A stretch of DNA of 64,000 nt, from the NCBI GenBank assembly GCA_015179025.1, contig WHUX01000211.1:1-64000 (forward strand), read 5' to 3'. The notes under the pieces are model-generated. The model made no database searches and was not told the DNA's origin. It saw only the letters and a program-made list of their open reading frames with translations. Positions 17,106 to 58,365 of this stretch are shown in pieces. Source of the stretch: Terfezia claveryi (lineage: Eukaryota > Ascomycota > Pezizomycetes > Pezizales > Pezizaceae). Position numbers and translations under genes: made by a program. Numbering within the stretch: the stretch's first letter is position 1; every line of letters begins with the position of its first letter.

Positions 17106-17682
17106 GCACGGCGCGAGGAGTGATGCTTTCAGCTCACTAGAGAGTTGTGGGAATCGAATTGATGTGTGTATGTGTGTGCGCGCGCACGACGTGAACAGGT
17201 CTTAAGGAGGGCGATTCAAATCGGGTGATGAGGCCTAGTTAGGCCCGGGCCTCAGTAGTTCCCTCCTCCTCATAGGTACTGATTCTGGAGGTCGGAACTC
17301 ATGATTAGGCTGTAACTACCACTGTTAGTGGCGGGTGGGCGGCCCTGGCCCGGGCCTTCAAGACACGCTAGTCTAGAAAGAGATGAAAGTGATTGCCCGG
17401 GTTGCTATAGTTCGTACGTGTCGGCATTTCTGATTGTCGAACGTCAAATAAGTGTCAAGCATATATTATATGTATTATGTACACCAATACGCAGGTTGGC
17501 ACGTGGTGGTGGTGTTGCATGTTGATGTTTGGCGGGCTGACGGCTCAATTCTGCTTGAAGTTGGAAGTGGGGGGGGCCGCCTACGAGAAGATCCGAGAGT
17601 TGGATTAAGCGCGTTGGGATAGGGGTCAAAGGAGAATACACACATGTTGAATGTACAGTACAGTACCGTATTAAAAGAATGC
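17106..17682. other. intergenic
   Basis: Contains a short GT/CG-alternating run near 17163-17188 and nothing that looks coding. Confidence 0.4.
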
Positions 17683-17699
17683 CTAGTCTGTCTGGTTGC
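17683..17699 (+). repeat. micro-insertion with 8-bp direct repeat
   Basis: CTAGTCTGTCTGGTTGC lies between AAGAATGC (17675-17682) and AAGAATGA (17700-17707). The inserted sequence is a variant of the TAGTCTGGTTG core that recurs through the window. Confidence 0.7.
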
Positions 17700-18023
17700 A
17701 AGAATGACTAGCAGTGGAGTTCAATTTCGAAAGTACCGGTACCTATGATGTGCATGCATTGTTGCTTAGTCGGAATGATGCGCGAGTGCTTATTGGTTTG
17801 CTGATGTTGACTCGACATGGGAGGGCTTGTGCCAACCAGACCGCAGATGAACCTCATGACAAGCATACCTAATATAAGCATATATATTTTTGTTAGAAGC
17901 ATACCTCCAGTGTTCCCACATAGTACCGGTAAATAAGAATATTTTGATTATAAGAATATTCTAGTTTTTTTTGGCTTAGCTACCATACATATGCTTGTAA
18001 CACGCGTTACCCTTGCTCGACCG

Positions 18024-19686
18024 GAAGTGTCCAATCACCGTCTAGTGTCCACTCTTGCAACATAGCACGTGATATATGGAACTGTAGACCGCGAGAACTC
18101 TATTGTACATAAATGCATTCACTATGAAAACAACTACGCTCTACAACATGGTTATCCTCACACACCGCCATATTCTACTCAATACCCCAACCCCGTTATA
18201 CCCGACCAACCCCCCCCACCGCCTCCTATAAGGTGAGTATCATGCAGGTGAACCCATGACCACGAGAGGGCCTTTACCTAGCATCTATATTCATGATAAA
18301 ACAGCTTCTAGGGCAGCAACCAACAATACAGGAGAACTGTCAGCTATCAAAAGAAGCCGCTCATCGCTGCAAACTGAGCCATTTTCCGAATTAAGTAAAT
18401 TCCTTGATTTATGCTATTCTTAACCCCCCCCAATACCTCAATCCGCTGCAATACTCTCTTCCCAAGCATCCTTAGCCACCACGGAAGGGTATCTAATAGC
18501 GCTGGAGCTCTAATACCCCCCCTTCAAGAATCTCCCCCTCCCATTAACTACCCCCCCTCTTCTACTCCCTCTATTGGCCTTATATTGTACGAATAGGCCC
18601 AAAACCGCTTATATCCATGGCAAATCAGTGCTGAAGATGGAGAGTGCAAAATCACCAAATTGCAGGATCTCAACCCGGCGCACTAAGCAAGTTCCGAGAG
18701 CTCTATTCAATCAGCAAAATCCACTCCATCTATACCCTCCTCAATCCCCCCGAGTTGAACTCTCCTCTCGAGCATTTTCAGCACCCCGTAGAGGTTGCTA
18801 ATCGCTCTGAGCTCCAATAACCCCCCATTTTGGACTCTAGTGGTCGCTATGGCCATGGCAGTATGCTGGCCTTTCTCGAGGCATTTTTAACCACTTTACA
18901 CGCTTCACAGCCACCACGCACTCCCCCCCAGCATTATCGATACCAGCGCAGGGTGTTGAGAGCACTGGGTTGGACACTAGGTTGGGCACTAGGTTGGACG
19001 CTACGTTGTTAGACGCTAGGTTGAACGCTAGGCTAGATCTTATGCAAGACGCGCTAGATTAGATGAGAGCGGCGAAGTTGGACTCGTGAGCGTAGGATTG
19101 CTGTTGTTTGCTGTAAGGGGGTTGAAGTGGCCTCGGAGCCTAGATGGAAGCGACCCATGAAGCCCAAAGGGGGTGTATAAGAACTCCCAGAGCTATTGGA
19201 GGCCTTTTGGTGGTGGCTGAGGATGCTTGGGAAGAGAGTATTGCAGCGGATTGATGTATAGTGGGGTTAGAATAGCATAAATCAAGGAAATTTATTTAAT
19301 TCGGAAAATGGCTCAGTTTGCAGCGGTGATCGGCTTGTTTTGATAGCTGACAGTTTTCCTGTATTGTTGGTTGCTGCCCTAGAAGCTGTTTTATCATGAA
19401 TATAGGTGCTAGGTAAAGGCCCTCTCGTGGTCATGGGTTCACCCGCATGATACTCACCTTATAGGAGGCGGTGGGGGGGGGGTTGGTCGGGTATAACGGG
19501 GTTCATATTGGGGAAGGCGGGTATAGGGGTATTGAGTCGAATATGGCGGTGTGTGAGGGTAACCATGTTGTAGAGCGTAGTTGTTTTCATAGTTATGCAT
19601 TTATGTACAATAGAGTTCTCGCGGTCTACAGTTCAATATATCACGCGCTATGCTGCAGGGGGGCCGGGCAGGGGCTGGACACTTCT
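18024..19686. mobile_element. long-inverted-repeat DNA element 2 (about 1.66 kb)
   Basis: About 18024-18490 and 19190-19686 are inverted copies of each other, aligning across several hundred bases including GATATAT, the CACGTG/CACGCG segment and AACTGTAGACCGCGAGAACT. The outer ends share GAAGTGTCCA. A direct target duplication is not clear. The arms share the segment TAGCATCTATATTYATG with element 1 at 12734-14449, so the two are probably related. The centre is non-coding and contains a short imperfect tandem repeat built on GGTTGGACACTA (18961-19034). Confidence 0.8.
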
Positions 19687-20401
19687 GTAGTCTGGTTGGC
19701 ACAACACCCTCCTTCTACTCAATTAGGTATGCTATCGATAAGAAATCTGGTTGAAATAACTAGTGCACCTGGAAGGCTTGGCAGACTACACTATGAAGTA
19801 GCCTCGTACAAACCTCGGGGGAGTTGCGAATGCTACAAAAATAATAACCTGGGTACGAGGCTATAAGTTGAACACGCAAAGCGAATATTCACAAATCACC
19901 CAGTATAACAACAAGCCAGACTACCGAGTATGCACCTCCAGACTACTAATCTCCAACAGAATGCACATGGCATCTGCACAAAGATAGTGTCAAGCATAGT
20001 CTGAGGCGGAGCGGCATTAGAACATATCCTGCGCAAAAACCCAAAGTCCATATGGCGACTGGTTTTGGAATCGGAAAAATCCCAAGAAGGAATTTACACT
20101 ATCCCAAATCAGTAAGATTCCGAATCCCAAAAGACCTCGTGGACAATTCAACATCAACCCAATACAAATACAAAAGCTTTACTCTCAATCGAAGCAGATT
20201 ACAACTGGGAAATTCCATGAATTAGACTCTGCATTATATTAGTACCCATAGTCTCCTTCCAGACCTTTTCTGAAGCCCCACACTACCTTCTTTCCATATG
20301 TACTTATTTTCTCTTAATATAAGAATATATTGGTTACAAGCATACCCCACCTGGCCCCGGTGGTATTCTTGTAATGAGGTTTATCTGTAATATGGGAGGA
20401 T
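19687..20401. other. intergenic with fragments of the TAGTCTGG family
   Basis: At 19687 a copy of TAGTCTGGTTGGCACAAC abuts the right end of long-inverted-repeat element 2. Two further CCAGACTAC segments occur near 19914 and 19949. No gene is seen. Confidence 0.4.
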
Positions 20402-20412
20402 GTAGTCTGGTT
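20402..20412 (+). repeat. 11-bp micro-insertion
   Basis: GTAGTCTGGTT lies between GGGAGGAT (20394-20401) and GGGAAGGAT (20413-20421), a near-identical direct repeat. Confidence 0.6.
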
Positions 20413-20525
20413 GGGAAGGATGGATGACGAGCACAGGAGGGTGTTAGACTAAATGACGAGAAGACAGCCACTTACATAGCACATAGGGTTAGCCGCTTAG
20501 GGAATAGGGATTTGTGGTACGTCAC

Positions 20526-20559
20526 TAGTCTGGTTGGCATAAACTCTCCTTTGAGTACC
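20526..20559 (+). repeat. 34-bp micro-insertion
   Basis: It begins TAGTCTGGTTGGCATAAAC and is bounded by GGTACGTCAC (20516-20525) and GGTATGTCAC (20560-20569), which match at 9 of 10 bases. Confidence 0.7.
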
Positions 20560-20569
20560 GGTATGTCAC

Positions 20570-21480
20570 AAGAAGTTCATCCAATTGTCGTCGGCGGATT
20601 CAGGAGTTGCACATATTTCCCATTTTGTTTCTTTTATATTATGTATGTAAGGGGAAGGGGCAGGGAACAACGTAAGGTGGGAGAACCCGATAGAGCAGGA
20701 TGCGCTCCCTCACCATAAGTTAGAATAACTTGCCTACTAGTACTGAATTAAAATAGAAATGTATATAAAAAAAAAAATGCTGAAGGGTACAGTACATTAA
20801 CATATCATATTCACATTTCTTCAGCCTCAGAATGTATCAATATTCATCTAGACCCAATGCTGGCTCTCAGAAGGACCTCTCAACGGGCCCGGCCAGGGTA
20901 GGGGTCAATCTGTAATACAATGAACAATTACGAGGCCTAGACCTTATACATTGGATCAGAATTCCAGGATAAGTCCGGAACATCACAAGAGACAATCAGG
21001 TAAGCTACCTTATGGGGAGGTATTGATTCAAAAGGCATTCATTACAAATGTCGCGCACGGCTAGATAAAGTATAATAAGAGCAAACTTAAAATATCTCTC
21101 ATGACGACCAACAGAAAGCATCTACAAAGACAACTTTTGCCTATCATCAAATTACACTGATTGGGGAATGAGAATTAAATTCCTGAATGCGATATATATA
21201 TAACTTAAAAAAAGCCTTGACGACATCAGTTCAATCATTAATATGGGTACAGTAAGTAGTCCCAAACCTCCCTGGAGTCGATCTTCGCACACAATAGCTC
21301 TGGCTTTCTCACTTCCAACGGTGCCGCTAATTGGCCAACACCCCATCCTTTAAACGAACTGGGGTGTTAGGATCATGAAAAGAAAACCACTCAGCATAAG
21401 AAATGAGTTCGAGATGTGTTTTTGAGCCTAGAAGTTTATTTTATCAGAGAATTGTTTGTTAGTTATTTGGTCGATTATAC
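20570..21480. other. intergenic
   Basis: No supported gene. An A-run sits at about 20767-20777. Confidence 0.4.
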
Positions 21481-21481
21481 G

Positions 21482-21900
21482 TTACATTCTTGAGCTACAC
21501 TCGTCTAGGTTAGCCCAATGCCCTTCCTGGATTGCATATGACATAGTGGGATATAAATCTTTGAATTGGACGTCCCAAAGCAGCCGCACAACAGCCCCGT
21601 GACCACTCATAGCTGCCCAGGTCAGTGGGGTGTAGCCATCTTTATTCTTTGTGTTAACATCCGCATCCTTCAGCCCTAGAAGCAGCCGTACAACAGCCTT
21701 ATGACCTCTCATAGATTGATACAATCACCCTGCCCAGTCCCAGGGGGTGGAACCATCTGTATCTTTTGGGTTGACGTCTACATTTTCTCGGCCCACAAGC
21801 AGCTACACCCCAGTCTCATACCTGCTCTTAGCTGCTCAAGCCAGTGGGTGTAGTCATATCTATCCTTTGGGCTAACATCTGCCCACTTACGAGATCCCCA
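21482..21900 (-). pseudogene. decayed ankyrin-repeat gene fragment
   Basis: Minus-strand reading gives ankyrin units: a repeat with GHKAVVRLLLGLKDADVNTK and a second with DGYTPLTWAAMSGHGAVV. Upstream (21725-21900) further units are recognisable in DNA, but only through stops and frame changes (for example a TGA after TGGGCAGGG). Ankyrin repeats bind proteins. This copy has no start, no flanking domain and several disruptions, so it is a relic of a larger NACHT/ankyrin-type or similar gene. Confidence 0.7.
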
Positions 21901-22231
21901 TGCCTATTCTAGGAGAGAAAGAAACGCAGAATAAAAAAGCCCTTACTATGGCCCATGGCGATTCGAGTTTTATCTCATCAAAAATTTAGATCAAGCCCAA
22001 TACCGCAGAACGTAATGCCTGAGTACCTTAAAGAGAGACCAAGATATGGATTCAAGTATTTAGCACATTTTATAGCTGGATCCGCACTTCTCAATACCCC
22101 TATAAGTTAGTGGAGGGGCTTGATTACCTATAAGACTATATAAAGGTTAGGTATTTCGTTGTAACAGACTAATTGTTGCTATGTGTTTGCGATTGAGAGT
22201 TGGCTACTTCGAAAGGTGCAAAAAGAAGGTT
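21901..22231. other. intergenic
   Basis: No feature recognised. Confidence 0.35.
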
Positions 22232-22329
22232 CGGTACTAGAAAGACTCGAACTTTCAACCTCCCGGTATTGCTGTGTGAATAGGATTCACATAACAGCCG
22301 GACGCGCTAACCAATTGCGCCATAGAACC
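22232..22329 (-). tRNA. tRNA-Asn(GUU) with 24-nt intron
   Basis: Read on the minus strand, a full cloverleaf forms: acceptor GGTTCTA/TAGTACC, D arm GCGC-loop-GCGC, anticodon stem TCCGG/CCGGG with loop CTGTTA-A, and T arm GAAAG/CTTTC with TTCGAGT. The anticodon GTT is at 22295-22293. An intron of 24 nt (22291-22268) sits one base 3' of the anticodon, the canonical position, leaving a 74-nt mature tRNA. The discriminator is G at 22232. The acceptor stem has one T-T mismatch at position 4-69, so it could be a weakened or recently decayed copy. Confidence 0.88.
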
Positions 22330-22501
22330 AGACATGTGATGTTTACAAGTGGAGTATTTATAAATGTAAGAAGATAAAGGGACAAACAATAATTTACATG
22401 GTTATCTCTGAATTAATGAATTAATCTAATGTGATTTAATACCAAAGTTTCACAATGCGCAAAACCGACGTCTCCGTCTGTAGCCAGTGCCAAAATTTAG
22501 C

Positions 22502-23632
22502 TCAAGCGGCATATGCCGAGGTCCCTCTGCCTGCAATCATCTCCTTGATACTCTCATACGCATCGTCGTCGATATCCAAAAATCGCATCTTTAGATAAGT
22601 TGCAATTAGTAATAATATAGAAGCAAAGAAAAGAAATAATGCCTGTGAGCAATGACTTCCTAAGCAAAAACAAAAGCAACTCACCATCTCTTCATTCCCC
22701 AATCCGCCCCCACCTCTACCAACCCCCATCCCACCATATAAAACGCCCTCAGTTTGACTCCCGGTAACACAGCCATTGACCCTCTCCAGCCATACACTGT
22801 GACTTTCTTCTTTAGCACCACCAGCCTTGCTTGCTTCCCGGAAGGCTCTCCATGCTCGCCATGCGCCCAGGTTCGCCGCTAGGTGGGGCGGAATATCGTC
22901 CAGAACTGACACTGACGAAAATACAGACTTCAAGTAGTATAGAACCTGGAGAATATTCTTCTCCTTTTCTGGGGAAGGTGAGGGAATGGATGGTGCTGAG
23001 TTCAAGGCAGGCTCTAGTGGTGCAAGGGGAGGATTAGGGGGAAGCTCTTTGCTGCCGGGAGATGTGGTTGTCTTTGGAGATGGAGTAGAATACCAGTTCG
23101 GAAAACCGTGCTTTAGGGTGAACGAGCCGGCGGGAAGATTCGAAATATTCTGATTGTAGTTAATGTGCGCTGCTGGGGGTTGAGGCTGTGACTTTCCGGG
23201 GCTAGAGTGGGTTGACAAGGAGGAGGGGGGTGGAGGAGGGGTTGGCGGAACGATAAGCGGGTGGTAAATGTCGGACAGAAAGGTTATTATGGGTGGATGT
23301 GCGGGATAGCCGGTTGGGAATAGAACTGTGAACTTCAGGATAGCAGAGGCAAATGGTCCTAATCAACTCGACATTAGACCTGCAGAGATGAGGTGTAACT
23401 TGTAGCTCGCTAAGAACCTTTCCGAACGAACATAACTCCCCACCATAATCTAGGCTCTTGCGGAGATAAAGACATATATATCCCTTGTGGAGAGGCATAT
23501 TTGAGACTTGCGCTGTTGTTGAAAATGGTGATGTTAGCACTCCACCCACTGGAGGAGTCGGGGCGGCACGAACAATTCGATCAGCAAGTTCTGCCGGCGA
23601 AACGCGTAGTCTGAATTTAGTGGCTTTGGCAT
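22502..23632 (-). CDS. UBC-fold protein, AKTIP/FTS-like non-catalytic E2 (304 aa)
   Basis: Four minus-strand exons: 23632-23574, 23512-23418, 23358-22685 and 22588-22502. The introns are 61, 59 and 96 nt and total coding length is an exact multiple of three. The N-terminal half is an E2-like fold: RRQNLLIEF, GIYMSLSPQEPRLWWGVMFV, then LFPTGYPAHPPIITFLSDIY and HPLIVP. At the point where active E2s carry HPN and the catalytic cysteine there is HPLI followed by prolines, so it should not form a ubiquitin thioester. LPAGSFTLKHGFPNW and SVLDDIPPHLAANLGAWRAW follow, as in fungal homologues. Animal AKTIP/FTS works with Hook adaptors on dynein-driven endosomes; a like role here is inference. The last intron is a multiple of three, and its retention would add a hydrophobic segment, giving a possible membrane-anchored isoform. 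Confidence 0.85.
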
Positions 23633-23983
23633 GCTTGAAAGGTGTGCGAGAGCTGTATGCCAGTGGTATTGGAACTCGCAGCCAGAAGGTGGTGGAGTAC
23701 CGGCGTTCAACGATAGGGCAATAAGCTTAGCTGCGGGCGTCCCGCCAAGTCGGTAGTGGGGCGAAAACAAAACACAAAACATCAGACGAGCAGCTATAGC
23801 AGGATGGTACAAACATCGACGGCTGTTACCAAATCTCCTCATAAATAATAACACATTTCTTTCTTGAGACGCCTCAAGACAATAGTTTTCTTCATCATAC
23901 GTCACTCACGAGGGCTTTTTTCTTATTTTTTTTCAAGAAATAGGCCTTCTCTAACAATTTCCAATGCTGTTCATATCCATGTG
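23633..23983. other. upstream region of the UBC-like gene
   Basis: The frame around exon 1 extends into this region on the minus strand (to 23905) but has no better start. It is presumed 5' leader and promoter. Confidence 0.35.
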
Positions 23984-23990
23984 CCAGTCA

Positions 23991-24004
23991 CGTAGTCTGC
24001 CAGA
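23991..24004 (+). repeat. 14-bp micro-insertion
   Basis: CGTAGTCTGCCAGA is bounded by exact CCAGTCA repeats at 23984-23990 and 24005-24011. It has only the GTAGTCTG part of the recurrent core. Confidence 0.5.
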
Positions 24005-24145
24005 CCAGTCATGGGTGCATACTTACCCGAGAAATTCGCTAGGTGTGAGAATAACCGAAGCACGGCAATGCACATTCTGCTTCTACATTGTGCAGCGAGC
24101 CTATACTGCAGTATCAAAAATATGATCTAAGAGCGTGATATCTAT

Positions 24146-24499: not shown

Positions 24500-24542
24500 T
24501 GTGGTATTCGAGTTTGCTATCTACATCTTCTGCCTTCGATGA

Positions 24543-28507: not shown

Positions 28508-28533
28508 CTAGTTGGCACAACCCCTCGGTAGAG
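28508..28533 (+). repeat. 26-bp micro-insertion
   Basis: It begins CTAGTTGGCACAACCCCTC and is bounded by GGATGCT at 28501-28507 and 28534-28540. It lacks the TCTGG part of the core. Confidence 0.6.
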
Positions 28534-28540
28534 GGATGCT

Positions 28541-38232: not shown

Positions 38233-41101
38233 ATGTTTGCTACTCTCCGGCGCCAGGGTCTCCGCCAGATTGCGAGGATACATACCTCTACACTCCCTAA
38301 TACATCTCTTCGCCTCGCTCTTCCAAAGAATGGAGCGATTGCATCTCTACCAAAGACTGTGTCTTGTGTTCCGTCTTCTACTCGTCTATTCACCATCTAT
38401 AGCCAAAAACTCTCTGTAGCACAGGCTGCCCTGCAGGAAGATGCAGAGGCGGCTTTCGATGCAGTGAAGGTAGCCACTACGCAAAGGATACCTGATTTAC
38501 TCAAGTTCCAAGATTTGCTTGACCATAAATTGATTGATAGAAGTGTTATGAGGGCTATTCTTGAGGATCTGAAGTTTGAGAACATGACCGACGTGCAGAG
38601 CAAGACTCTGAGGGCGACCTTGGAGGGGAATGATGTGTAAGTAAATTTATTCTAAAGTACAAGTCTCCATTGCCACTAACGCAAGACATAGTCTCGCTCA
38701 AGCAAGGACTGGGACCGGCAAGACAATTGCCTTTTTACTCCCTGTCTTGCAACGCATCATTGCCTCAAACAGACCAGTTGAGAGGCACCGAGTGGGCCAG
38801 CCATTGGACATCCGCTCAATAATCATTTCTCCAACTAGAGAATTGGCTCAGCAAATCGCCAAGGAGGCAGAAATTCTTACCACATATTGCAAGAACATTC
38901 ACATTCATACTGCTGTGGGAGGAACCGGAAAGTCTATAGGTCTCCGAAACATGCACAAAATTGGATGCAATATTTTGATCGCTACACCTGGCCGTCTGTA
39001 CGATTTGTTGACTGACAGTGCCTCCGGTGTTAACGGAAGGAACATGGAGATACTTGTTCTCGACGAGGCAGACAACCTTCTTGACCAAGGATTTGCAGAT
39101 GCCCTTATGGACATCATCAAGCTCCTTCCTTCAAAGGATAACAGGCAAACAATGCTTTTCTCCGCTACCGTCCCAGCGAAGGTACAAACTATGATCAATG
39201 CTGCCTTGAAGCCAAAGCACAAGGTTCTGAAGTTAGTTGCTAAGGGAGATGTTCTCACCCACAACAAGGTCGAACAGCGACTCATCACCGTCAACGGTTT
39301 CGAGAATCTTCTCCCCACCCTTTATGAGCAGATGATGAAGGAAATTGCCACCACCATAGCTGACAAGGGGAATCCATTTAAGGCTATCGTCTTCTTCCCA
39401 ACCGCCAAATACGCTGCCTTGGCTGCAGACACTTTCCAAGCTCTCAGGGATCCCAAGACCGGCTACAGCCCATTCACTGGAACCCCAATGATTGAGATAC
39501 ACTCCCGCCTTTCCCAGCCTCAGCGTGAAAGAGCTGCCAAGAAATTCCGTGAGGGAAGGTCTGCAGTGCTGTTCTCTTCTGACGTCGTTGCTCGAGGAAT
39601 GGACTTCCCAGATGTCACCCATGTTTTCCAAGTTGGATCTCCTAGGTCCCTGGAACAGTATATTCACCGTATTGGACGTACTGGCCGTGGAAACAAATCC
39701 GGATTGGGCTATATCCTCCTTGCCGATATCGAGAAGACCTATGCCTTGAAGGAGCTTCGTCCGGAGATCAAGCTAGTTGACTACAATGAGCATTCTGCCA
39801 TTGCCGCTGTCGACATGTCTAAGGAAAGTGTTCTTCCAAAGGCCGCTGCTGAGGCCCTCACCCTCGTAATGGAGGCCTCGCAGAGCATTGAAGATGACCT
39901 CAAGAGGGGTGCTTATCTCGCCAACCTTGGGTACTATTCTTACTTGGGTAACAAAAGTGCGCTAGTAGCTAGCTTAAACAGGTGGACTGCTCTGGGCTGG
40001 GGGATGGCGAGGCCACCTAGGATTAGCTCTATGCTGATAGGGAGACTTGGTTTGCGGGGAGTTCCTGGGATTGAGGTCGGAGGTGAAGCCGTCGCTCGCC
40101 CCGGTGGACAACGTGGATTCAATACACGTAGCGGTGATGGCTTCAAATCCCGCGATGACAGAGAAGGAGGGTTCAGACCTAGGGAGGGTGGATTTGCGCC
40201 AAGGGGTGACCGTGAAAGTGGGTCTCAGTCAAGGGGGGGTGAGTTTGCTGCCCGTGGTGACAGAGAAGGAGGAGAAGGAGGATTTAAACCTAGGGAGGGT
40301 GGAGTTGCTCCAAATGATAGGGAGAGTGGAACCAAGCCAAAGGAGGGTGGATTTGTTCCCCGCGGTGATGGGGAGGGTGGGTTTAAGCCAAAGGAGGGTG
40401 GATTTGTTCCCCGCGGTGATGGGGAGGGTGGGTTTAAGCCAAAGGAGGGTGGATTTGTTCCCCGCGGTGATAGGGAGGGTGGGTTTAAGCCACGGGATGG
40501 ATTTGTTCCCCGCGGTGATAGGGAGGGTGGGTTTGCTCCGAGAGGTGATAGAGAGGGCGGATTCAAGCCAAGGGAGGGTGGATTTGTTCCCCGTGGTGAT
40601 AGGGAAGGTGGGTTTGCTCCGAGAGGTGATAGAGAGGGCGGATTCAAGCCAAGGGAGGGTGGATTTGTTCCCCGTGGTGATAGGGAAGGTGGGTTTGCTC
40701 CGAGAGGTGATAGAGAGGGCGGATTCAAGCCAAGGGAGGGTGGATTTGTTCCCCGTGGTGACAGGGAAGGTGGGTTTAAGCCAAGAGAGGGTGGGTTTGC
40801 TCCAAGAGGTGATAGAGAGGGTGGTTTCAGGCCTAGGGAGGGTGGATTCGCTCCAAGGGGTGACCGCGAGGGTGGATTCAAACCAAGGGAAGGTGGGTTT
40901 GCCCCCCGCGGAGATCGCGGAGATTTTAAACCTCGAGGTGACCGCGAGGGTGGATTTAAGCCAAGAGAAGGTGGTTTCGCTCCCCGTGGTGACAGAGATG
41001 GTGGATTCAGGCCTCGTAGTGACAGGCCAGAGTTTAATAGCCGTCCTCAAAGGCCATGGGAGGGTAGGGGAAGACAGTCCCCTGGAAAGAGGTTCAACTA
41101 A
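38233..41101 (+). CDS. mitochondrial DEAD-box RNA helicase with long Gly/Arg-rich repeat tail (937 aa)
   Basis: Exons 38233-38636 and 38692-41101; the 55-nt intron splits the codon just before LAQARTGTGKT. The N-terminus is basic and Ser/Leu-rich, as in mitochondrial presequences. Helicase motifs are complete: Walker A ARTGTGKT (residues 139-146), PTRELAQQI, TPGRL, DEAD at 259-262, SAT, then SSDVVARGMDFP and YIHRIGRTGRG. The closest known group is Mss116/Cyt-19, which helps group I and II intron splicing and mitochondrial translation. From about residue 600 to the end the protein is a repeat of GGFxPREGGFxPRGDREGG units, an RGG-like RNA-binding tail far longer than in yeast Mss116. The repeat is nearly identical at DNA level in places, so copy number may vary between strains. 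Confidence 0.95.
40140..41060 (+). repeat. coding minisatellite in the helicase tail
   Basis: Tandem units of about 30-36 bp encode GGFxPREGGF and PRGDREGG blocks. Higher-order units, such as the roughly 87-bp block seen three times between 40500 and 40770, are almost identical. The G-rich repeat leaves several other frames open on both strands, which produces long spurious ORFs. Confidence 0.9.
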
Positions 41102-43327: not shown

Positions 43328-43359
<32 letters not shown>

Positions 43360-44601: not shown

Positions 44602-44724
44602 ACATCTACGACCATAGACTGAAGAAAACGAGGCATCCCGTCCGCTCTGCCATATCTAAGCTTCAGATCGCCAGGCTAGTACTGCAGTGGGTGACCACGC
44701 GATAAAGTCTCCCATCGCAGCACT
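44602..44724 (+). pseudogene. 5S rRNA pseudogene, nearly full length
   Basis: The 5' end ACATCTACGACCATAGACTG and the internal blocks GGCATCCCGTCCGCTCTGCC, CTAGTACTGCAGTGGGTGAC and CACG match fungal 5S rRNA in order and spacing (about 123 nt). The 3' arm that should pair with ACATCTACGAC is replaced by TCGCAGCACTAAAC, so helix I cannot form. It is a dispersed, decayed copy. Confidence 0.8.
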
Positions 44725-46478: not shown

Positions 46479-46744
46479 CATGGTTTTCATACATATTGAG
46501 AGCTCGCGAGAGCATGGTTTTCATAGATATTGAGAGCTCGCGAGAGCATGGTTTTCTTACATATTGAGAGCTCGCGAGAGCATGGTTTTCATACATATTG
46601 AGAGCTCGCGGAAGCATGGTTTTCATAGATATTGAGAGCTCGGGAAGCATGGTTTTCAAGCATATTGAGAGCTCGCGGAAGCATCGTTTTCATACATATG
46701 AACAGCCCGCGAATGCATGGTTTTCATACATATTGAGAGGCCGC
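46479..46744. repeat. 34-bp minisatellite, about eight copies
   Basis: Unit: CATGGTTTTCATACATATTG followed by AGAGCTCGCGAGAG, with scattered substitutions (CATAGATATT, CGCGGAAG). The arrangement is a direct tandem without spacers. Confidence 0.95.
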
Positions 46745-46964
46745 CCTAAACTTCCCACATACCTACAGCTATTTCTTAAAGTAGGAGTGCAGGTAAGACA
46801 AGTTCTGAGACAGCGTCAGTCAGTTGGGCAGCTGGATCCGACATCAGGGGGCCGGGGGCACGGAGTGTCCCTTCCCTATTTCCAAGGTGTGGCCGGCTGG
46901 GACTTAGAGATATTCTCGTGTTCATTGCACAAGACTACGGATTTCTATGCTTCTCTACGCTACC

Positions 46965-47290
46965 GAGCCCATATGGACGCGGATATCAGGCAAGTAAGGA
47001 CCCCCCATTGCAGGCTCGCATGGACGCGGATATCCAGGCTAATAAGGACCCCCAATTGCAGGCTCAAATGGACCCGGATATCCAGGTGAATAAGGACCCC
47101 CAATTGCAGGATCATATGGACGCGGATATACAGGCTAATAAGGACCCGGTATTGCAGGCTCATATGGACCCGATCCAGGCGAATAAGGACCCGGTATTGC
47201 AGGCTCATATGGACCCGGCGATCCAGGCGAATAAGGACCCAGTATTGCAGGCTGATATGGACCTGGATATCCAGGCGAATAAAGGGACGG
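46965..47290 (+). repeat. 48-bp minisatellite, seven copies, open in frame
   Basis: Each unit encodes about 16 residues of the form AHMDPDIQANKDPVLQ. The frame is open at 46918-47316 but has no convincing ATG or flanking domain. One unit is shortened by 3 bp, keeping frame, which could mean past selection or chance. Confidence 0.9.
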
Positions 47291-50766: not shown

Positions 50767-51560
50767 AGGGTTGTCACCAATTTAAAAAACTGCTTACCAC
50801 CCTTGTTGCTTAACCTAGGTGTTTAACCAAATAGAGATGAGAATGTGATTTAATTGCTGTAGTCTGGTTGGCACTAATTGCTGATACCTCTTGCGACACA
50901 ACCATTTGCATTTTATTTAACTGCTGACTCATGGGGCAAATCAACACAGCCATTCCAGCATTGCATACTCTAGCATGCTGCATATGTACCTATTCCGCAT
51001 ACCTATTCTGCATACCCCAAACGAAGCCAGCATGCCCTCCCCCCGTTCAAGCAAGAGGTCTATGAGCAGATTGCTTCCCTCGTACCTAACTTCTCTTGAT
51101 TATCCTCTATTTATCTAACAAGCCTTCCTATGTCTGATTTATCCCATGCTTTGTAACCTCTGTCGCCGACGCTGACGCCGACGTCTTACCGATCGGTCGT
51201 TTGGATGAGGGGCGTGTACTTGGCTCTTCCGATGGGGATGGTGGGCTGGATTGAGCTGGTTGGCCAGATGGAGGGTGGGAGCTCAGAGAGAACACCGTGA
51301 AGTCGTTGGTGATTGCGGTTGTGGAGCTTGATTCGCCTTCGTTGAGTTCATGGAGTTGCGTTCACTGCCTTATGACTCAGCAACTTAAGCAGGTTTGAGC
51401 AGGTTTAAAGCACCTGGAGTGCTTTAACTTGCTTAAAGTTGCTTAACCATGATATGATTGCTGATTGGCTGGTTGCCGTTGTCGATTTGCATGGGTACCC
51501 CACACTAAGGTTAAGCAACAAGGGTGGTTAAGCAGTTTTTTAAATTGGTGACAACCCCCT
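50767..51560. mobile_element. nested TA-flanked element
   Basis: The left end AGGGTTGTCACCAATTTAAA and the right end TTTAAATTGGTGACAACCCC (plus CT) are inverted copies extending through ACTGCTTAACCACCCTTGTT. TA flanks the element at 50765-50766 and 51561-51562. The interior (about 700 bp) has no transposase, so it is non-autonomous. It contains dense short inverted motifs built on TTAAGCAGGTT near 51385-51450. Confidence 0.85.
50859..50874 (+). repeat. 16-bp micro-insertion with exact 8-bp TSD
   Basis: GTAGTCTGGTTGGCAC lies between two exact TAATTGCT copies (50851-50858 and 50875-50882). It is the cleanest member of the family and sits inside the nested element. Confidence 0.85.
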
Positions 51561-51619
51561 TATTCTATGCCGTCTGTAGCCTCTACTATATTCTCAACCT
51601 CTTCCATCTATCTGCCATG

Positions 51620-51765
51620 CCCTACCGTAATATCTGGTAGGCCACGCACATAAAGCTTTATATTTTCAGTCCCATTAGGGGATATAGAAATACCTGCCTG
51701 TTTAAAAGACTTAATAATACTCTCCTTTTTCTCTGTATGTAACCAAAGCCATGCTTGTCCAACTG
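51620..51765 (-). pseudogene. pogo-like transposase C-terminal relic
   Basis: Minus-strand reading contains QAWLWLHTEKKESIIKSFKQ then AGISISPNGTE and YVRGLPDI, the typical end of DDE transposases of the pogo/Fot1 group (helix, KSF, G-I-S, acidic turn). It fits the TA target site of the surrounding element. Confidence 0.55.
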
Positions 51766-52071
51766 CTTCAGTTATGAGAATACCTCCGGTTCAGAGAATT
51801 GACACTCCTGGGTTGTAGAGCAGTAGATTTGCCCTTAGGCCCTGGTCAGGTGGACTTAGTAGCTGAGCCTAGAATTGTTGACATTATTAGGTATTGGAAT
51901 ATTGAACTTTAATCCGATAATCTCGATAATCCATACCTACATTTTTCCTTTTCCTCCTACTATGTTAACCGTGTTGCCAACTTTTCATATTGAGATCTTG
52001 CCCGGTTGCATGGTGGCTTGCAGATGTCTCAAAAACCGACAAGGTGTCTTATTCACCAGTTTTCCCGGGTA

Positions 52072-52303
52072 CCGGAAGCTCATCGTCATCCTTAAAAACG
52101 AACTCATTCCTCGCTTTTTTGGTGTCGGGGATGTTAGCAACGCAAAGCTCGAGCTGGGGGGCATCAAAGCCGTTGAAGCAGTTGGGGTTTGCGGTCACAA
52201 TAGCCATTTTGAGGTGTCCGATAGTTTTATTCCAGTCAATGTCGATGGGAAAGGGAACCAAACTTGGGTCCCCATGGACCCAACAAATCAGCGTGGTTTC
52301 CAT
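52072..52303 (-). pseudogene. Crinkler-like ubiquitin-like header domain
   Basis: The minus strand starts METTLICWVHGDPSLVPFPI, continues with NKTIGHLKMAIVTANPN and FDAPQLELCVANIPD, and ends at DDDELPV. This is the ubiquitin-like header of Crinkler proteins (LICWV, K-x-V/I-G-x-LK, L-x-L). The coding sequence runs directly into the transposon end at 52069-52071. Its continuation (SATIQHIINDHFQG) lies at 50600-50642 on the far side. Confidence 0.8.
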
Positions 52304-52484
52304 AGTGCTGGAGCCGGAGTTAAGCAGCTGCTGGAGCTTTGATGAAGGGGCGGCTGATGAGTGGGTCGTGATGGGTCATGGAGTTTAAGGAGGAGGGAGG
52401 AAGGCGAGAACAAGGAGGATGATGGAAGGAAGTAGAAAACTAGGCTCGCCAAGTGTTCCGCCAAGCCGTCAACCCTAGTACTGC
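52304..52484. other. upstream region of the Crinkler-like header
   Basis: Presumed former promoter. No other feature. Confidence 0.3.
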
Positions 52485-52541
52485 AAGCTTCAGATCGCCA
52501 GGCTAGTACTGCAGTGGGTGACCATGCCCACCGCAGCACGC
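52485..52541 (+). pseudogene. 5S rRNA 3'-half pseudogene fragment
   Basis: AAGCTTCAGATCGCCAGGCT and the following AGTACTGCAGTGGGTGACCA are identical to the relic at 44602-44724. The match ends soon after at CCGCAGCAC. The preceding CTAGTACTGCA repeats a segment inside the fragment. Confidence 0.75.
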
Positions 52542-52598
52542 AATGGGTATTTAGAAATTTTGACTTCTTGTTTCGGTTCGTTGGATGGTTGCCTTTTT

Positions 52599-52609
52599 GT
52601 AGTCTGGTT
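52599..52609 (+). repeat. 11-bp micro-insertion
   Basis: GTAGTCTGGTT lies between exact GCCTTTTT copies (52591-52598 and 52610-52617). Confidence 0.75.
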
Positions 52610-52617
52610 GCCTTTTT

Positions 52618-52650
52618 GACAGCTACGGAGGGGTTGTGCAACCAGACTAG
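52618..52650 (-). repeat. 33-bp micro-insertion
   Basis: On the minus strand it starts CTAGTCTGGTTGCACAACCC. It is bounded by GCCTTTTT (52610-52617) and TCCTTTTT (52651-52658). It thus shares a target copy with its neighbour in opposite orientation. Confidence 0.7.
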
Positions 52651-52790
52651 TCCTTTTTTGGCCCATACCTTTTCCATGTACCTATGTCTACCCTTTTTGT
52701 AATTAAGCTAGTCCTATATTGGTAATCTCCTACCACACCAAATTCTTAGGCGGGGATGTTGTGCCAACACCACGACTGAGCGTGCCAGAC

Positions 52791-53000
52791 TACCGCAAGA
52801 ACTCGGAATAAGACCCCCCCAGCCGAACTAATGTTGGTTGCTATGTCTAATACTAATTCTGCCTAAATTATGCAATAGGAGGTGGGTCTAGGCAGAATTA
52901 GTATTAGACATAGCAACCGACATTATAGTCTGGTTGCACAACTCCTCGGAACCCGACATCAGTTCAGCTGGGGGTCTTATTATTCCGAATTCTTGCGGTA
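52791..53000. repeat. hairpin MITE (about 210 bp)
   Basis: The outer arms TACCGCAAGAACTCGGAATA and its complement TATTCCGAATTCTTGCGGTA, and the inner arms GTTGCTATGTCTAATACTAA and its complement, fold into one long hairpin. It is interrupted only by a 29-bp insertion at 52924-52952. ACTGAGCGTGCCA occurs just outside both ends. Confidence 0.85.
52924..52952 (+). repeat. 29-bp micro-insertion in the hairpin arm
   Basis: It starts TATAGTCTGGTTGCACAACT and is bounded by CCGACAT (52917-52923 and 52953-52959). Removing it restores pairing of the hairpin arms. Confidence 0.75.
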
Positions 53001-53008
53001 CAACTGAG

Positions 53009-53023
53009 CGTGCCAACCAGATT
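53009..53023 (-). repeat. 15-bp micro-insertion with 10-bp direct repeat
   Basis: CGTGCCAACCAGATT lies between exact TACAACTGAG copies (52999-53008 and 53024-53033). Confidence 0.75.
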
Positions 53024-53033
53024 TACAACTGAG

Positions 53034-54759
53034 CCTAGATATCAGCGAGCAAATCGGCTAGAATCCTCCAAATCAACCGCGTGCAAATAAGCCTTGTAAT
53101 CTATGAGAACACTTGTAACCCACTATTTGAATAGTCTCGATCTCTGGGTGTAAATCGGCTGGCTTGCAAATGAGGCTCCGTTGTTTCCCTGAATTTCCTA
53201 CAGTCTTCATAACCACTGTCCCATGCCGCCTCTGTTAAAGCTTCTTCCGTCTCCTTCCTCTATAAACCGGCTTCTTGTTCCCCTTGCCTCCCTGTCTCCC
53301 CTCGGGTCGCTACCTTCATATGTGTTTGCCATGGAGGGGCTTTCGTTGAATTTTCTCCCTACTCGACGTGTCTCTATTCGGGCTTTAAATCCCAGATCAT
53401 CCTTAATTTTTTTCTCCGCTTTTGTGAGCCTCTCACTCCTCGATCATTCGAGCTTTCAGCTCCAGTACTCGACCCTTCGCCTTGCTCAATTGTTTGTGTG
53501 CGTCTCACTCGTGCTCAAGTTCCTGAACTCGCATCCCCAGTCTGCTGCCTGTAGTCTTTCTACCCTCCCCAATCTCAATGTCTAGCGATGGGATGGTTAA
53601 CCCGGTGATTGTTCCCGACCCCGAAACATCTGGCATCGAAAAAAATCTCATCAGGTTCAGCGCATAAATACCACGGGTCTGATTGGCACCAGGGGTATTT
53701 ACTACTCTCCAAGTAAGAAATTACCTTTGTGCAATATCCCTATTAGACAACAAGAAGTCACCTTGCCTTCTCCTGTAAGAAGAATTCTTATGTTGATCGT
53801 GATAATCTCCTGTATAATTTATAATCTAAATAAACTCAATATTATTTGATTTTACATGGATATAACAGACATGAAAAAATAGAAAAGGAGGAGAGAAGAG
53901 CAGGCCTCATAATATCCAAACATGGTGACGTTGTGTTCAATTCAAAATTGTCTTGGCAGCGAACCAAGGTTCAAAACACTACCTACTCTACCTACTCGTG
54001 CCCAGACTCATAATTATGCTTAGCGCTCCAATAAGAGTCTGGGAGTAAACTCCTCCGAAATTACACGCTAGTGTGCTCCGAACCGGCGCAGAATGCCAAG
54101 CCCAAGGTATATTGCGCTAGTAGCTCCGAATGTATTATGTATGTTAGCTTGTTTTCGTCACTCCCGCCTGCACGCGTATACTACTCTGAGGGATCTTCCA
54201 ATTACTGTAGACAACTGGGATCCAATTCTAATAACTGCTGAAGAAGCATTGTGGGAACCACGGGTATTCCTGGTCTGCGAGCTGTTGCACAATAGCAATA
54301 TGGATGTGATCTTGTTCTTCACACGACTTATGAGTTCAAAATCAAAATGCCTGAAGAAGAAATAGCACAGCTTCATGGAGAACAAAGGCGTCAAGAAGGT
54401 GTTTGAGGCAATGTTGAGTGTGATGAGTTACAATACAAAGAAGAAGCAGAACTCTACCACTTCCATATTGGAGTAGAAGCAAAAATTAGGAGTAGGGTCG
54501 TCCAGAACCAGATTTTTTTTTATTATCCATATCAAATTAATTCGATTCTTTTACTATACAAATCTTAGAATCAGAGCATAGTGTAGAGTATTTTGAGTTC
54601 ATTCAGAGTTATAACGCTGTTCTGAGTTATAATGCTTGATCGGCTTGTTCTGGAGTTATCCACTCATTTTAGCTCATTCCAATTATTATAGAGCTCATGT
54701 AGCTCAATCGGAAGTTATAGGGCTCATTCAGCTTATTCGGAGGTTATTCAACCTCTAGT
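53034..54759. other. degenerate intergenic DNA
   Basis: A minus-strand segment near 53430-53570 has coiled-coil-like composition with stops and may be a gene relic. The rest (53600-54759) is AT-rich with imperfect GAGTTATAAT-type repeats leading into the array below. Confidence 0.3.
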
Positions 54760-55110
54760 TTATAGGCTCGCTCAGTACGTTATAGGCTCATACAGCACCT
54801 TATAAGCTTGCTCTAGACAATATAGGCTTACTCAGTGCCTTATAGGCCTGCTCTGGGCAATATATGCTCGCTCAGTGCCTTATAGGCCTGCTCCGGGCAA
54901 TATATGCTCGCTCAGTGCCTTATTGGCCTGCTCTGGGCAATATATACTTGCTTGGTGCCTTATTGGCCTGCTCTGGGCAATATATACTCGCTCAGTGTCT
55001 TATAGGCCTGCTCCAGGCAACATATGCTCGCTTGGTGCCTTATTGGCCTGCTCCGGACAATATATGCTCGCTCAGTGCCTTATTGGCCTACTGTTCAGGA
55101 CAATATAGGT
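54760..55110. repeat. 40-bp minisatellite, about nine copies
   Basis: Unit: TATGCTCGCTCAGTGCCTTA followed by TTGGCCTGCTCTGGGCAATA, with frequent A/T, G/A exchanges. The 40-bp period is not a multiple of three, so successive units are read in shifted frames; the open frames across it are by-products. Confidence 0.9.
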
Positions 55111-55147
55111 ACCAATAATGACTGTCAATTGTCCTGGATGTTTCCTC

Positions 55148-55186
55148 CAGGCATCACCTGCATTACAGGTGATGTAATGATGCCTG
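55148..55186. repeat. short imperfect hairpin
   Basis: CAGGCATCACCTG and CAGGTGATGTAATGATGCCTG pair over most of their length. It marks the junction between the 40-bp array and the 177-bp repeats. Confidence 0.7.
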
Positions 55187-55199
55187 AACTATTCCCACA

Positions 55200-55690
55200 A
55201 TCAACCTCCACAATGCTGGAGCATACCTTTCAGAGCTTCAACCCTTTCCTCGAGTGCCTCTCTTATCATATCTCTGCTCCGGTGGCTTTAGCTACAGACC
55301 CAGTTGAACTAGAGCCAGTATCAGGATACTAAGTAAGCAGAAGTAAACATACTACATGAGGCACTTCAGCAAGAGTTCCCAACTCCACAATGCCCGGAGC
55401 AGACCTTTCGGAGCTTCAAACCTTTCCTCGAGTGCCTCTTTTATGATATCTCTGCGCCGGTGGCCTTATGTACAGACCCTGTTGATCTAGAGCCAGCATA
55501 AAGATACTAAGTAAGCCGAAGCAAACATACTATATGAGGCACTTCAGCAAGAGTTCCCAACTCCATAATGTCCAGAGCAGACCTTTCAGAGCTTGAAGTC
55601 TTTTCTCAATATCCTCTCTTGTGATATCTCTGCGCCGGTGGCCTTAAGTACAGACCTAGTTGAACTAGAGCAAGTATACTCCTAATGTAA
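55200..55690. repeat. three diverged tandem repeats of about 177 bp
   Basis: Copies begin at about 55206 (CTCCACAATG), 55382 and 55561 and share CAGAGCTTC, TATCTCTGC-CCGGTGGC and TGAGGCACTTCAGCAAGAG. No coding potential is visible. Confidence 0.9.
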
Positions 55691-56010
55691 GCGTGCTGAT
55701 TCTCCTCAGGTCACGTGAGTATTCTGCGCTGGTCACGTGTATTTCTGCTCCGGTTTTGTCTAAATGACGCTAACAGCTCCGGAAATGACGCTAACAGCTC
55801 CGAGAACACTACCTACTCTACTTTATCCTCATATTCAGAACTTTATACATTTGGATGATTGCTGACTGCTGCAGTAGTCATCCCTTTGCTTGAGGAGAGA
55901 CTAAATTTCTTTCCCTACTGTCGTTTGTGGTGATACTTTCTTTATCTAATCTCTTTTCTGGTCTTCGTCGACCCTATCTCAAATCGTCTCTCTATCTTCA
56001 TTATTTCCTC

Positions 56011-56025
56011 TGCCAACCAGACTAT
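56011..56025 (-). repeat. 15-bp micro-insertion
   Basis: TGCCAACCAGACTAT lies between ATTTCCTC (56003-56010) and ATCTCCTC (56026-56033), upstream of the deaminase start. Confidence 0.6.
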
Positions 56026-56164
56026 ATCTCCTCCTATTGCCCAAGCTCTCGCTTCTAGTCTGGCGAGTCTACCTCAAGATCAAGAGTTAGCTGTTCTCTA
56101 ATTCTCCCCTCGGAAGCAAATCTTGAAACTACTCAGCTATTCTACTTGCCTATCCTCCACAGCC

Positions 56165-58365
56165 ATGTCAGCACCAGCCGTGCTCCCGCAAAGGTACGTA
56201 TACATCCATGCTATTACGTTGATGTATAGAGCTAATTAAAGTTTCAGCGCTCAATTCGAAGGGGGTGGTACTACTCTTAGGCGGGGTTGTTGTGCCAACC
56301 AGACTAGTACTACTCCCCTTGCTGTTGCATCCTTATCTGCTCATGATCTACGCACACGAACTCTTACATTCATGATATCTGCACTCAACACCACTGACTC
56401 AAATTCCCGTGCTGCGGCGTTTACCTCACTGGAGCCCAATCCTGTCGTATCAGATGATCCCGACAGTACTGACAGTAACACTCGCTGGTTAAAGCTACTC
56501 AACCAGATTGCATTGCTGCTGGTTCGCGAGCACGAGATTGTCGCTGTTCTTCCTAAACAGTCGGGCCCACATGCTCATGTTAATATCATGGTCACCACGG
56601 ACTCGGACAGTGAGGAAGATCACTCTCTCCATAGCCAAGATCCTCAGCCACCCCCTCCGGCAAAATACTTAGTGACACAGAACCCCACCTCCGACTCACC
56701 TGACTCACCAACTCCTACTGCCGACTGTCTCACCCCGGAAACCCTCAAGACCTCGGATTCACTACTGGAGTATCTTAATAGTCACCGACATGACTCTTTT
56801 CCAATACATGTACTCAGCGTTGAGGCGCTACTCAACAAATGCATTGCTAACCCAAGAGCCGGCATGGCCTTATTAACGCTTTACATCACCTTCCGAGCTG
56901 CACCAAAGATGAATCGGCGGTTCAATGCACCCACACTCACATCCTTCTTTCGGGCACTCCAGTCCTTGACTCCAGAAGAGGTCTCTAGGAGTGTTCGTCA
57001 AAACAACCTCACCATCAGTATAGGAGGCGAGGGCGAACGAAATCTCATTGCAGACATTCTCCACTCTATTGTTGTAGACTCACTTGAGGCTGAATATCCA
57101 TATCTCTACAAACAATGGCAAACCACTAGTCAAGCAATCTATGATGGTAGAAGTGCCTGGGAATTCCACAAACTCCTTGTGTACACCTTCTCCTTGGCTA
57201 AAAAATATGTTGCTTCCCTCATATCCGCACTGAAATTGCCTGCCTCAATCCCCAAAGTCTCGGTAAGCATTGCAAGCAAGTGGATGTTCTCTCTCCACAA
57301 ACTTATTTACCACTCACCTATTTTTCAAGCCCACATCGGCGCTCTCGAATCCCTGGTTGCAGAGAAAATGAAGGTGGCCATGAAAAGGGGGTTCAGTGAC
57401 CCACCAGTGCCAAATGAGGATTTTGATGATGGTATAGATTTAGAGATGAACCTTGAGCAGGCGACTTCTCCTAGCCGCATGGTGCAAAAAGCATTGTGGC
57501 TTGTAGTCTCATATCAACAAGCAATGGAAGTTGTCACCAATCGCCGGGCACTCCCAAAATTCCCACTCTCATTTACATTCCTGGAACCTCCTACTAAGCG
57601 TAGCATAACAGAAATGGAATCATGGACAGATGTGATTCATAGCATGTATCCCTCCACTACCACTCCTTCTATGCAACCATCTTCACAAGCGATCACAGCA
57701 CAGAAGCTATTAATGCATTAACTATCTTTGGTACCAAAAACAAAGGAAAATCAACCCACTTCGCTGGCCACCCACATCTATTCTGCGGAGCTTATCACGC
57801 CGAGAGCATGCTTGGCACACTTTCCTATCTCTCCTACCACCCCCACTGTGTTACCCACGATCAAGATACCCTGCTTATGCGACGAACGAAAGAGGAGCTC
57901 TTGTTGTTCAAAAACACATATGGGACAATTGGGGTCTCGAAGAGATGTTGTCCAGTGTGTACAAAGCTGCTTTCTCTTCTGTATAAGCACAGCCAGGGGC
58001 AGATTCGGGCGATGATAGGTGGATCTGGCAATCAGGGCATGCCAGTTTTACACCAGCCAGAGCTAAAAGTCTTGAATTCTCATTGGAATATATACCCCAC
58101 TGCTCTTCCGCCGTTTTTGCCCAAGGAGGTAGCTGAGGAATTAGTTAAGTGGTTGGAAGGCTTGTTGAAGCACGCAGTGAAGAAGGTTGTGAGTGCGGAT
58201 TCGAAGGGGCAGAGCCCAGAGCCTGAGGGGTCAGGACGTGAGGAGTTCCCAGTTGTAAGAGTTGCGCCGAGGGGTAATACAGCTCGTCCATGGTGGCATT
58301 GGACGGCTCAGGAGGTGGCAGAGGCAGAGGCTGCGGAGGAGGCAGAGTGGGCGGCAGAGGAGTAG
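56165..58365 (+). CDS. OTT_1508-type deaminase-fold protein (697 aa)
   Basis: Three exons: 56165-56193, 56248-57645 and 57699-58365; introns of 54 and 53 nt and an exact multiple of three overall. The large N-terminal region (about residues 50-475) is helical and unassigned. The C-terminal part has the zinc-deaminase signature: FAGHPHLFCGAYHAES with H509-A-E511, then IGVSKRCCPVCTKLL with C560 and C563. The HAE/SK-CxxC arrangement is that of the OTT_1508-like deaminase family, expanded in fungi and predicted to act on nucleic acids or nucleotides in conflict or mutagenic defence; activity here is inferred. Exon 2 contains a 31-bp micro-insertion plus 8-bp duplication (56277-56315) that adds 13 codons in frame without a stop. 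The tail is an acidic Ala/Glu repeat. Confidence 0.82.
56277..56307 (-). repeat. 31-bp micro-insertion inside the deaminase exon
   Basis: On the minus strand it starts CTAGTCTGGTTGGCACAACA. It is bounded by exact TACTACTC copies (56269-56276 and 56308-56315). Together with one repeat copy it adds 39 bp, a multiple of three, so the reading frame survives. Confidence 0.85.

Follow-up and report, generated by a model that had tools for sequence, protein, structure and literature searches.

Introduction

DNA transposition is taught as requiring two paired ends, and miniature inverted-repeat transposable elements (MITEs) carry a terminal repeat at each end and are of constant length, usually 50-500 bp. 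One-ended transposition also occurs in bacteria with Tn3, and abortive gap repair leaves deletion derivatives and solo terminal repeats that have lost one end or the interior and kept the target duplication; the known cases are longer, and their parents are recognisable. Here we describe a dispersed family of micro-insertions, traced by the motif TAGTCTGG, in positions 1-64000 of contig WHUX01000211.1 of Terfezia claveryi (contig C126; this whole 64,000-base stretch is referred to as the window) and in the rest of its genome assembly (GCA_015179025.1; 72,558,070 bases in 794 contigs). The copies resemble MITEs in being non-coding and dispersed, with 9-bp target duplications and a constant terminal motif in either orientation, but 102 of 108 classified repeat-flanked copies are one-ended, at 10-38 bp, and unlike the known products of abortive gap repair they are shorter, and no parent of theirs was recognised in the loci read.

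Target site duplications (TSDs) of Mutator-like elements (MULEs) are given as 8-11 bp (PMC6446971) or 9-11 bp (PMC3310237) and their terminal repeats as typically long, in the sections of both papers used here. The micro-insertions share the 9-bp duplication, which is also seen for two MULEs of this genome, and differ in that no coding element with TAGTCTGG ends was found in the loci read. The 'solo TIR' (terminal inverted repeat) in the relevant section of PMC3310237 is an extra repeat within a MULE. One-ended transposition of IS91 and IS801 likewise combines a fixed with a variable end, and an extract of PMC3189936 likens IS91-type transposition to a round of plasmid replication, with fragments that end at a tetranucleotide and, for IS801, measure 229, 360 and 679 nt; these bacterial pieces of hundreds of bases are far longer than the micro-insertions. 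Among very short insertions present in many copies, the closest class is that of the introners. These introns reach >2,000 copies, their families have median lengths of 30-654 nt, some of them show duplications of 3-9 bp, and the ascomycete families are reported to lack TSDs and TIRs (PMC9860276). The micro-insertions, in contrast, carry 9-bp duplications, and no site in the window overlaps an open frame of at least 200 amino acids. We found no description of such elements in the literature searched, which left subscription journals mostly outside, and the 12-mer core string turned up in two unrelated papers.

Results

The 10-mer core TAGTCTGGTT has 7,569 exact matches in the genome, compared with 161 for its letters in reverse order, and the 15-mer TAGTCTGGTTGGCAC has 2,885 compared with none; a 17-mer ending in CACAA (the 15-mer plus AA) occurs 1,616 times. 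Nine exact copies of TAGTCTGGTT lie in the window where 0.15 were expected, a number that none of 100 shuffles got to. Seven of the nine lie between 9-bp direct repeats that differ at no more than one position (20403, 20526, 50860, 52600, 52926, 56024 and 56306), and the exact cores at 19688 and 52649 have none at that threshold. When the core was allowed up to two mismatches, 11 window sites had a 9-bp repeat with at most one mismatch, four of them exact, versus means of 1.76 (largest 9) and 0.62 for shuffled motifs and 3 for the reversed motif; two of the 11, at 38689 and 47041, look like chance matches, the latter sitting within a tandem repeat. The micro-insertion family is thus confirmed as real and genome-wide. 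Degenerate tandem repeats at 46479-47240 (units of ~34-48) and 54831-55080 (~40 bases) lift the background of short direct repeats in the window. No other micro-insertion family was seen among the 40 commonest 8-mers listed for 264 kb of sequence, none of which recurs like TAGTCTGG (29 times); the remaining ones are parts of the same family or resemble tandem or low-complexity repeats.

To define the target duplication, 232 TAGTCTGG sites in 101 loci (297 kb) were compared after removal of duplicate sites and sites near locus edges. Loci other than the window had been picked for holding the 15-mer TAGTCTGGTTGGCAC or, in 32 cases, the 25-mer TAGTCTGGTTGGCACAACACCCTCC, a choice that biases class ratios in favour of exact cores and longer forms. 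Directly next to the core, the longest exact repeat was 9 bp at 57 sites, 10 bp at 15, 8 bp at 11 and 7 bp at 7, and abutting exact repeats of at least 7 bp were present at 100 of 232 sites compared with ~1.65 when left flanks were dealt anew. With the repeat fixed at nine bases, 84 sites were exact and 38 had one mismatch, versus 1.58 and 3.90 with flanks dealt anew, in agreement with the original prediction that flanking repeats exceed chance. The target duplication is therefore 9 bp long, with a sharp peak, and falls within the MULE range (8-11 bp, usually 9). This length replaces the 8-bp duplication first proposed, and the hAT origin that had been built on it is rejected. Base preference in the target is weak and symmetric, T occurring in 7 of 69 cases at position 1 and A in 8 of 69 at position 9. 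Two loci on contig C2 hold more than one copy: at L021:470-590 a tandem pair of micro-insertions is accompanied by three copies of one 9-bp repeat (CGTCAGATC), as though one target had served for two insertions, and at L022:225-312 a 34-bp family copy harbours a 15-bp insertion with its own exact 9-bp repeat.

Most copies have a single end. Among the repeat-flanked rows of this sample, 102 are one-ended, compared with six both-ended copies (12 rows); the 102 contain a few paralogous or nested cases (e.g. L089/L090, L004/window, L006:9484), omit 8 rows >40 bp, and belong to a repeat-flanked set in which ~5 of 122 rows are expected from chance alone. The two terminal inverted repeats of a MITE are likewise rare genome-wide, where 46 inward pairs stand beside 2,885 arms. 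The picture first drawn from the window, of a family scattered through the DNA whose copies have a constant end, a variable other end and target duplications, is supported by the sampled sites, as is the argument that inserts of this size leave no room for a normal pair of terminal repeats, and single-end insertion is the best reading of them. The initial length range of 11-34 bp was about right and becomes 10-36 bp once the repeat is set at nine bases. In the 69 exact one-ended cases, 26 inserts measure 10-16 bp (14 of them exactly 15), one measures 20 bp and 42 measure 24-36 bp.

The 15-bp form has the structure TAGTCTGGTTG-GCA-C, and the longer forms consist of an arm followed by the beginning of its own complement (CCTCC-ACA-GGAGG, CCTCC-TGT-GGAGG, CTCTC-GTA-GAGA and others), frequently ending at the loop or shortly past it. 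Terminal fold-back stems of 3-5 bp were found in 19 of 102 inserts, compared with 2.7 when the part after position 15 was shuffled, while 2-bp stems occurred in 37 (control 31) and stems of 0-1 bp in 46 (control 68). End points one base beyond the loop recur in three hairpins (GTTG-GCA-C, CCTCC-ACA-G and CTC-GTA-G), with both loop strands (ACA and TGT) present. The hairpin regularity is thus carried by the longer stems and by these recurring end points, not by every insert.

Insertion into previously unoccupied targets was assessed by joining the flanks of a copy without the insert and without one of its repeats and comparing the result with the sampled DNA. Clean, diverged empty paralogs that hold the 9-mer once and lack the insert were recovered for five insertions, at window:52926 (27 bp), window:52600 (10 bp), L093:178 (33 bp), L001:5903 (34 bp) and L088:179 (29 bp), so that the expectation of empty sites lacking the core was borne out, here by paralogs. 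Target duplication and paralogous empty sites are features that the family has in common with MITEs. In addition, one 15-bp insertion is common to two diverged paralogs, window:50860 and L004:4720, which means that the insertions have existed long enough to be passed on and did not arise as library artefacts.

Twelve window sites had originally been listed. Those at 50859, 52599, 53009 and 56277 carry exact repeats of at least 9 bp; those at 17683, 20402, 20526, 52924, 56011 and 23991 carry 9-bp repeats with one mismatch; the site at 28508 is decayed with a 7-bp repeat, and that at 52618 proved to be an inverse second piece without a clean repeat. On the forward strand, the 15-bp insert TAGTCTGGTTGGCAC, the commonest single length, occupies 50860-50874 between exact copies of TAATTGCTG (50851-50859 and 50875-50883), and the 10-bp insert TAGTCTGGTT at 52600-52609 lies between exact copies of GCCTTTTTG (52591-52599 and 52610-52618) and has an empty paralog at L015:3870-3976. 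The longer, inversely oriented piece TAGTCTGGTTGCACAACCCCTCCGTAG at 52623-52649 (reverse strand), which has no clean 9-bp repeat, is also missing from L015. A one-ended 27-bp insert at 52926-52952 (forward) is flanked by CCGACATTA and CCGACATCA, its empty paralog lying within the window itself (52865-52791). Forward copies with a single mismatch in the 9-bp repeat are the 16-bp insert TAGTCTGTCTGGTTGC at 17684-17699 (AAGAATGCC at 17675-17683, AAGAATGAC at 17700-17708), the 11-bp insert TAGTCTGGTTG at 20403-20413 (GGGAGGATG and GGAAGGATG), a one-ended 35-bp insert at 20526-20560 (GTACGTCAC and GTATGTCAC) and the 12-bp insert TAGTCTGCCAGA at 23993-24004 (CCAGTCACG and CCAGTCATG), whose core is too diverged for the motif scan and was read by eye. 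Also read by eye was the decayed 26-bp forward copy CTAGTTGGCACAACCCCTCGGTAGAG at 28508-28533, with GGATGCT on both sides and a damaged constant end.

On the reverse strand, the 16-bp insert AAATCTGGTTGGCACG at 53009-53024, the first bases of which are decayed, has the exact 9-bp repeat CTCAGTTGT and may alternatively be divided into a 14-bp insert and an 11-bp repeat; the 14-bp insert TAGTCTGGTTGGCA at 56011-56024 is flanked by GAGGAGATA and GAGGAAATA (one mismatch), and a one-ended 30-bp insert at 56277-56306 by exact copies of GAGTAGTAC. A forward copy of the 25-bp arm TAGTCTGGTTGGCACAACACCCTCC at 19688-19712 has no recognisable repeat. Elsewhere in the window, a DEAD-box helicase open frame contains an internal tandem repeat at 40294-40470 (GGAGGGTGG motif), and a lone 5S ribosomal RNA gene is present at 44604-44723. 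A fungal transcription-factor domain, together with the closest named relatives listed for a GTPase of the window (Terfezia claveryi at 77%, Tirmania nivea at 67% and Peziza echinospora at 62% identity), points to a genome in or near the Pezizaceae.

Both-ended structures were collected as inward pairs of the exact 15-mer TAGTCTGGTTGGCAC separated by at most 60 bp, a search that demanded 15 exact bases on each side. The 46 pairs found genome-wide can be compared with 26 outward pairs at 0-30 bp spacing and 18 inward pairs at 61-91 bp. In 27 of the 46, the whole structure is covered by two known one-ended pieces placed head to head with 0-5 bp of overlap, and in one of these 27, C157:168310, the joined pieces come from two different subfamilies; one further pair leaves 1-3 bp uncovered. 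The shorter piece measures 15-16 bp in 21 of 46 pairs, a figure partly caused by the 15-base search rule. Seven both-ended copies have 9-bp repeats (25, 25, 30, 34, 35, 50 and 54 bp), six of them exact. A head-to-head composition of both-ended copies is compatible with these data but not proven by them. Palindromes considered as parents were scarce: the 25-bp palindrome that could underlie the 15-bp class has only two copies and the 30-bp perfect palindrome one, and a longer inward-paired parent was rejected with the 18 pairs at 61-91 bp, fewer than the 26 outward pairs.

A search for a longer parent in the loci read was negative. The 1,028 inverted pairs of 47 loci included no element >34 bp with these ends, the three pairs with a 9-bp repeat spanning 25, 30 and 34 bp. 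Among the 40 most similar downstream pairs listed, all of which lie within single loci, no interior was shared between loci; the known paralogs L004/window and L089/L090 do have flanks in common. At sites without a repeat in long loci, the left 9-mer recurred 100-3000 bp downstream in 1 of 47 cases (0.48 expected).

The genome has 21 hits to the MULE domain and 150 scored hits to the hAT domain. A full-length partner carrying this end, which the original prediction had called for, was not found, although the loci of only 6 of the 21 MULE hits were read. Two MULEs of ~2.6 kb, L041:103-2738 (C61) and L042:541-3158 (C89), have matching terminal repeats that begin with CGGACTGACTC and exact 9-bp duplications (TTGTTGAGG and TGCTACCTA, respectively), which shows that MULE machinery with a 9-bp stagger has acted in this genome. 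Within their terminal repeats, CGGACTGACTC is followed by an internal hairpin, GGACAGGTA-CTTTC-TACCTGTCC, the loop being CTTAC in the outermost copy of L041. Solo ends of this resident family were considered as an origin and rejected, none being found beside the four ends of the two elements. A third MULE, L046/L117 (C773), has inverted repeats of ~1.1 kb and only an 8-bp duplication candidate, inside the arms; TAGTCTGGTTGG occurs in both arms (L117:987 and 3387), pointing outward and without obvious flanking repeat, and is possibly an old micro-insertion copied along with the arm. For L043-L045, terminal repeat and duplication could be resolved in none.

Nothing in the hAT loci read (L110-L116, hAT ends not delimited) ties the abundant hAT domains to the micro-insertions. 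L110, L112 and L113 lack TAGTCTGG, and L114-L116 lack TAGTCTGGTTGG at one mismatch. At L111:229 (C190, reverse strand), the 10-bp micro-insertion TAGTCTGGTT, flanked by the 9-bp repeat GTTACAAGC, is located close to a hAT domain and does not represent a terminal repeat.

Discussion

In its behaviour the family resembles DNA transposition with a target duplication of MULE length, and it falls outside the definitions of both MITEs, which have two ends, and hAT elements, which duplicate 8 bp. For the 9-bp duplications, empty sites, one-endedness and length classes observed here, we tentatively favour an explanation in which short, pre-broken end fragments of a small palindromic element are inserted by a MULE-type transposase and usually only one of them survives repair. 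The enzyme type is inferred from the 9-bp stagger. A transposase with a 9-bp staggered target cut, most likely Mutator-like, would recognise TAGTCTGGTTGGCAC as its terminal repeat and would join already broken end fragments of the palindromic element to new sites. Two fragments may attack the two target strands, producing a break whose two ends both carry the 9-base target and bear one fragment or none, and one fragment would usually be lost exactly at the junction, for example by trimming as a 5' flap. Gap filling and end joining would then yield 9 bp, a single fragment and the identical 9 bp, whereas survival of both fragments could give the head-to-head joins seen as rare both-ended copies. 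Fragment length would reflect the position of the cut, either after TAGTCTGGTTGGCAC (15) or near the hairpin tip (~24-36). Joining of fragments is favoured since both-ended copies can often be read as two pieces of solo lengths, one of them combining two subfamilies.

Several observations weigh against this explanation. Two-stranded target cutting normally needs two ends, and loss of one fragment must be assumed in ~97% of insertions. Neither a transposase gene nor a longer element with these ends was found in the loci read, and the CGGACTGACTC end of the C61 and C89 MULEs occurs at four places in the genome, all in those two resolved elements and never alone, so that single-end insertion is no habit of that family. 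No repeat accompanies at least three inward structures of the loci read (L021:249, L008:4240 and L031:124), two known pieces leave >3 bp unexplained in 18 of the 46 inward pairs, and some of the 46 pairs are separate insertions, the count being not far above the outward baseline of 26. A 9-bp repeat with at most one mismatch is missing at 110 of 232 sites, and about 5 of the 122 repeat-flanked sites are attributable to chance. Finally, near-perfect palindromes make up 17 of the 46 inward pairs. They measure 30-51 bp, their central gap does not exceed 6 bp, and they include a 51-bp palindrome with 24-bp arms at C712:239236 and a gapless 50-bp palindrome at C2:632017. An origin as deletion derivatives of full palindromes suits these pairs no less well than the joining of two pieces.

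The palindromic pairs weaken the fragment-joining explanation and strengthen its main rival, abortive gap repair, which we nevertheless consider rather unlikely. Here palindromic MITEs of ~50 bp would insert with a 9-bp duplication and excise, and the gap would be repaired by copying the element from one side only. Copying would halt once the nascent strand had folded back on itself at the tip of the palindrome, leaving a stub to be joined to the other target copy. Interrupted gap repair is an established account of internal deletions in Mutator elements, and it would explain the exact retention of both 9-mers, the one-endedness and the end points near hairpin loops, together with the 17 palindromic pairs with central gaps of at most 6 bp. 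It requires, however, that complete elements entered and left thousands of sites and that the conversion of full palindromes was nearly complete, while both-ended copies are few (46 compared with 2,885 arms). Gap repair alone also leaves the sharp 15-bp class unexplained, the matching 25-bp palindrome occurring only twice, and the two-subfamily join at C157:168310 would need an ectopic template. The hairpin end points could instead reflect a self-contained element whose moving form is a folded single strand, its blunt base serving as one transposon end; the 3' end would join, copying would proceed up to the loop, the other arm would be trimmed, and self-priming of one-ended copies could restore the hairpin. 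End points one base past 3-base loops in three hairpins, with both loop strands occurring, and the 19 of 102 inserts with 3-5 bp terminal stems (2.7 in the control) agree with such an element, but inserts of 10-14 bp hold no such hairpin and most inserts lend it little (46 of 102 have stems of 0-1 bp, and 37 have 2 bp, control 31). We know of no eukaryotic transposase that works via a hairpin with a staggered 9-bp target, and this mode seems improbable. The data do not finally separate fragment joining, gap repair and a hairpin intermediate.

Two further explanations fare worse. Truncated long interspersed element (LINE) copies also combine a constant end, a variable end and flanking duplications, and the family could in principle reflect extreme 5'-truncated retroposition, of the kind known for LINEs and short interspersed elements (SINEs), of an RNA ending in ...GTGCCAACCAGACTA. 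The duplication is fixed at 9 bp and not variable, however, both-ended copies carry the same 9 bp, there is no excess of long copies, and the 40 most similar downstream pairs stay within single loci, all of which makes this origin very improbable. That the family is an artefact or chance product (library adapters, assembly errors or a misread ordinary family of decayed MITEs) is scarcely credible. The elements are very short, and Tn5-based libraries likewise produce 9-bp duplications, but the core is presumably not the Tn5 mosaic end, the copies are mutated, one insertion is common to two diverged paralogs and five have empty paralogs, and the backward patterns gave 0 and 161 matches against 2,885 and 7,569.

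It is possible, though we would not count on it, that these copies represent a mobile-DNA class of their own, single-ended nano-elements of 10-36 bp in >7,000 copies, in which a lone end, often hairpin-tipped, is inserted with no second end and no surviving full-length parent. With thousands of one-ended copies, about half of those sampled (122 of 232) still flanked by 9-bp repeats, single-end insertion and its repair would become directly testable. The micro-insertions would also supply insertions of 19-45 bp (insert and duplication together) that have gone unnoticed and that repeat-annotation programs probably overlook because they are so small, and single-ended nano-elements, if this is what they are, would to our knowledge be the smallest mobile DNAs known.

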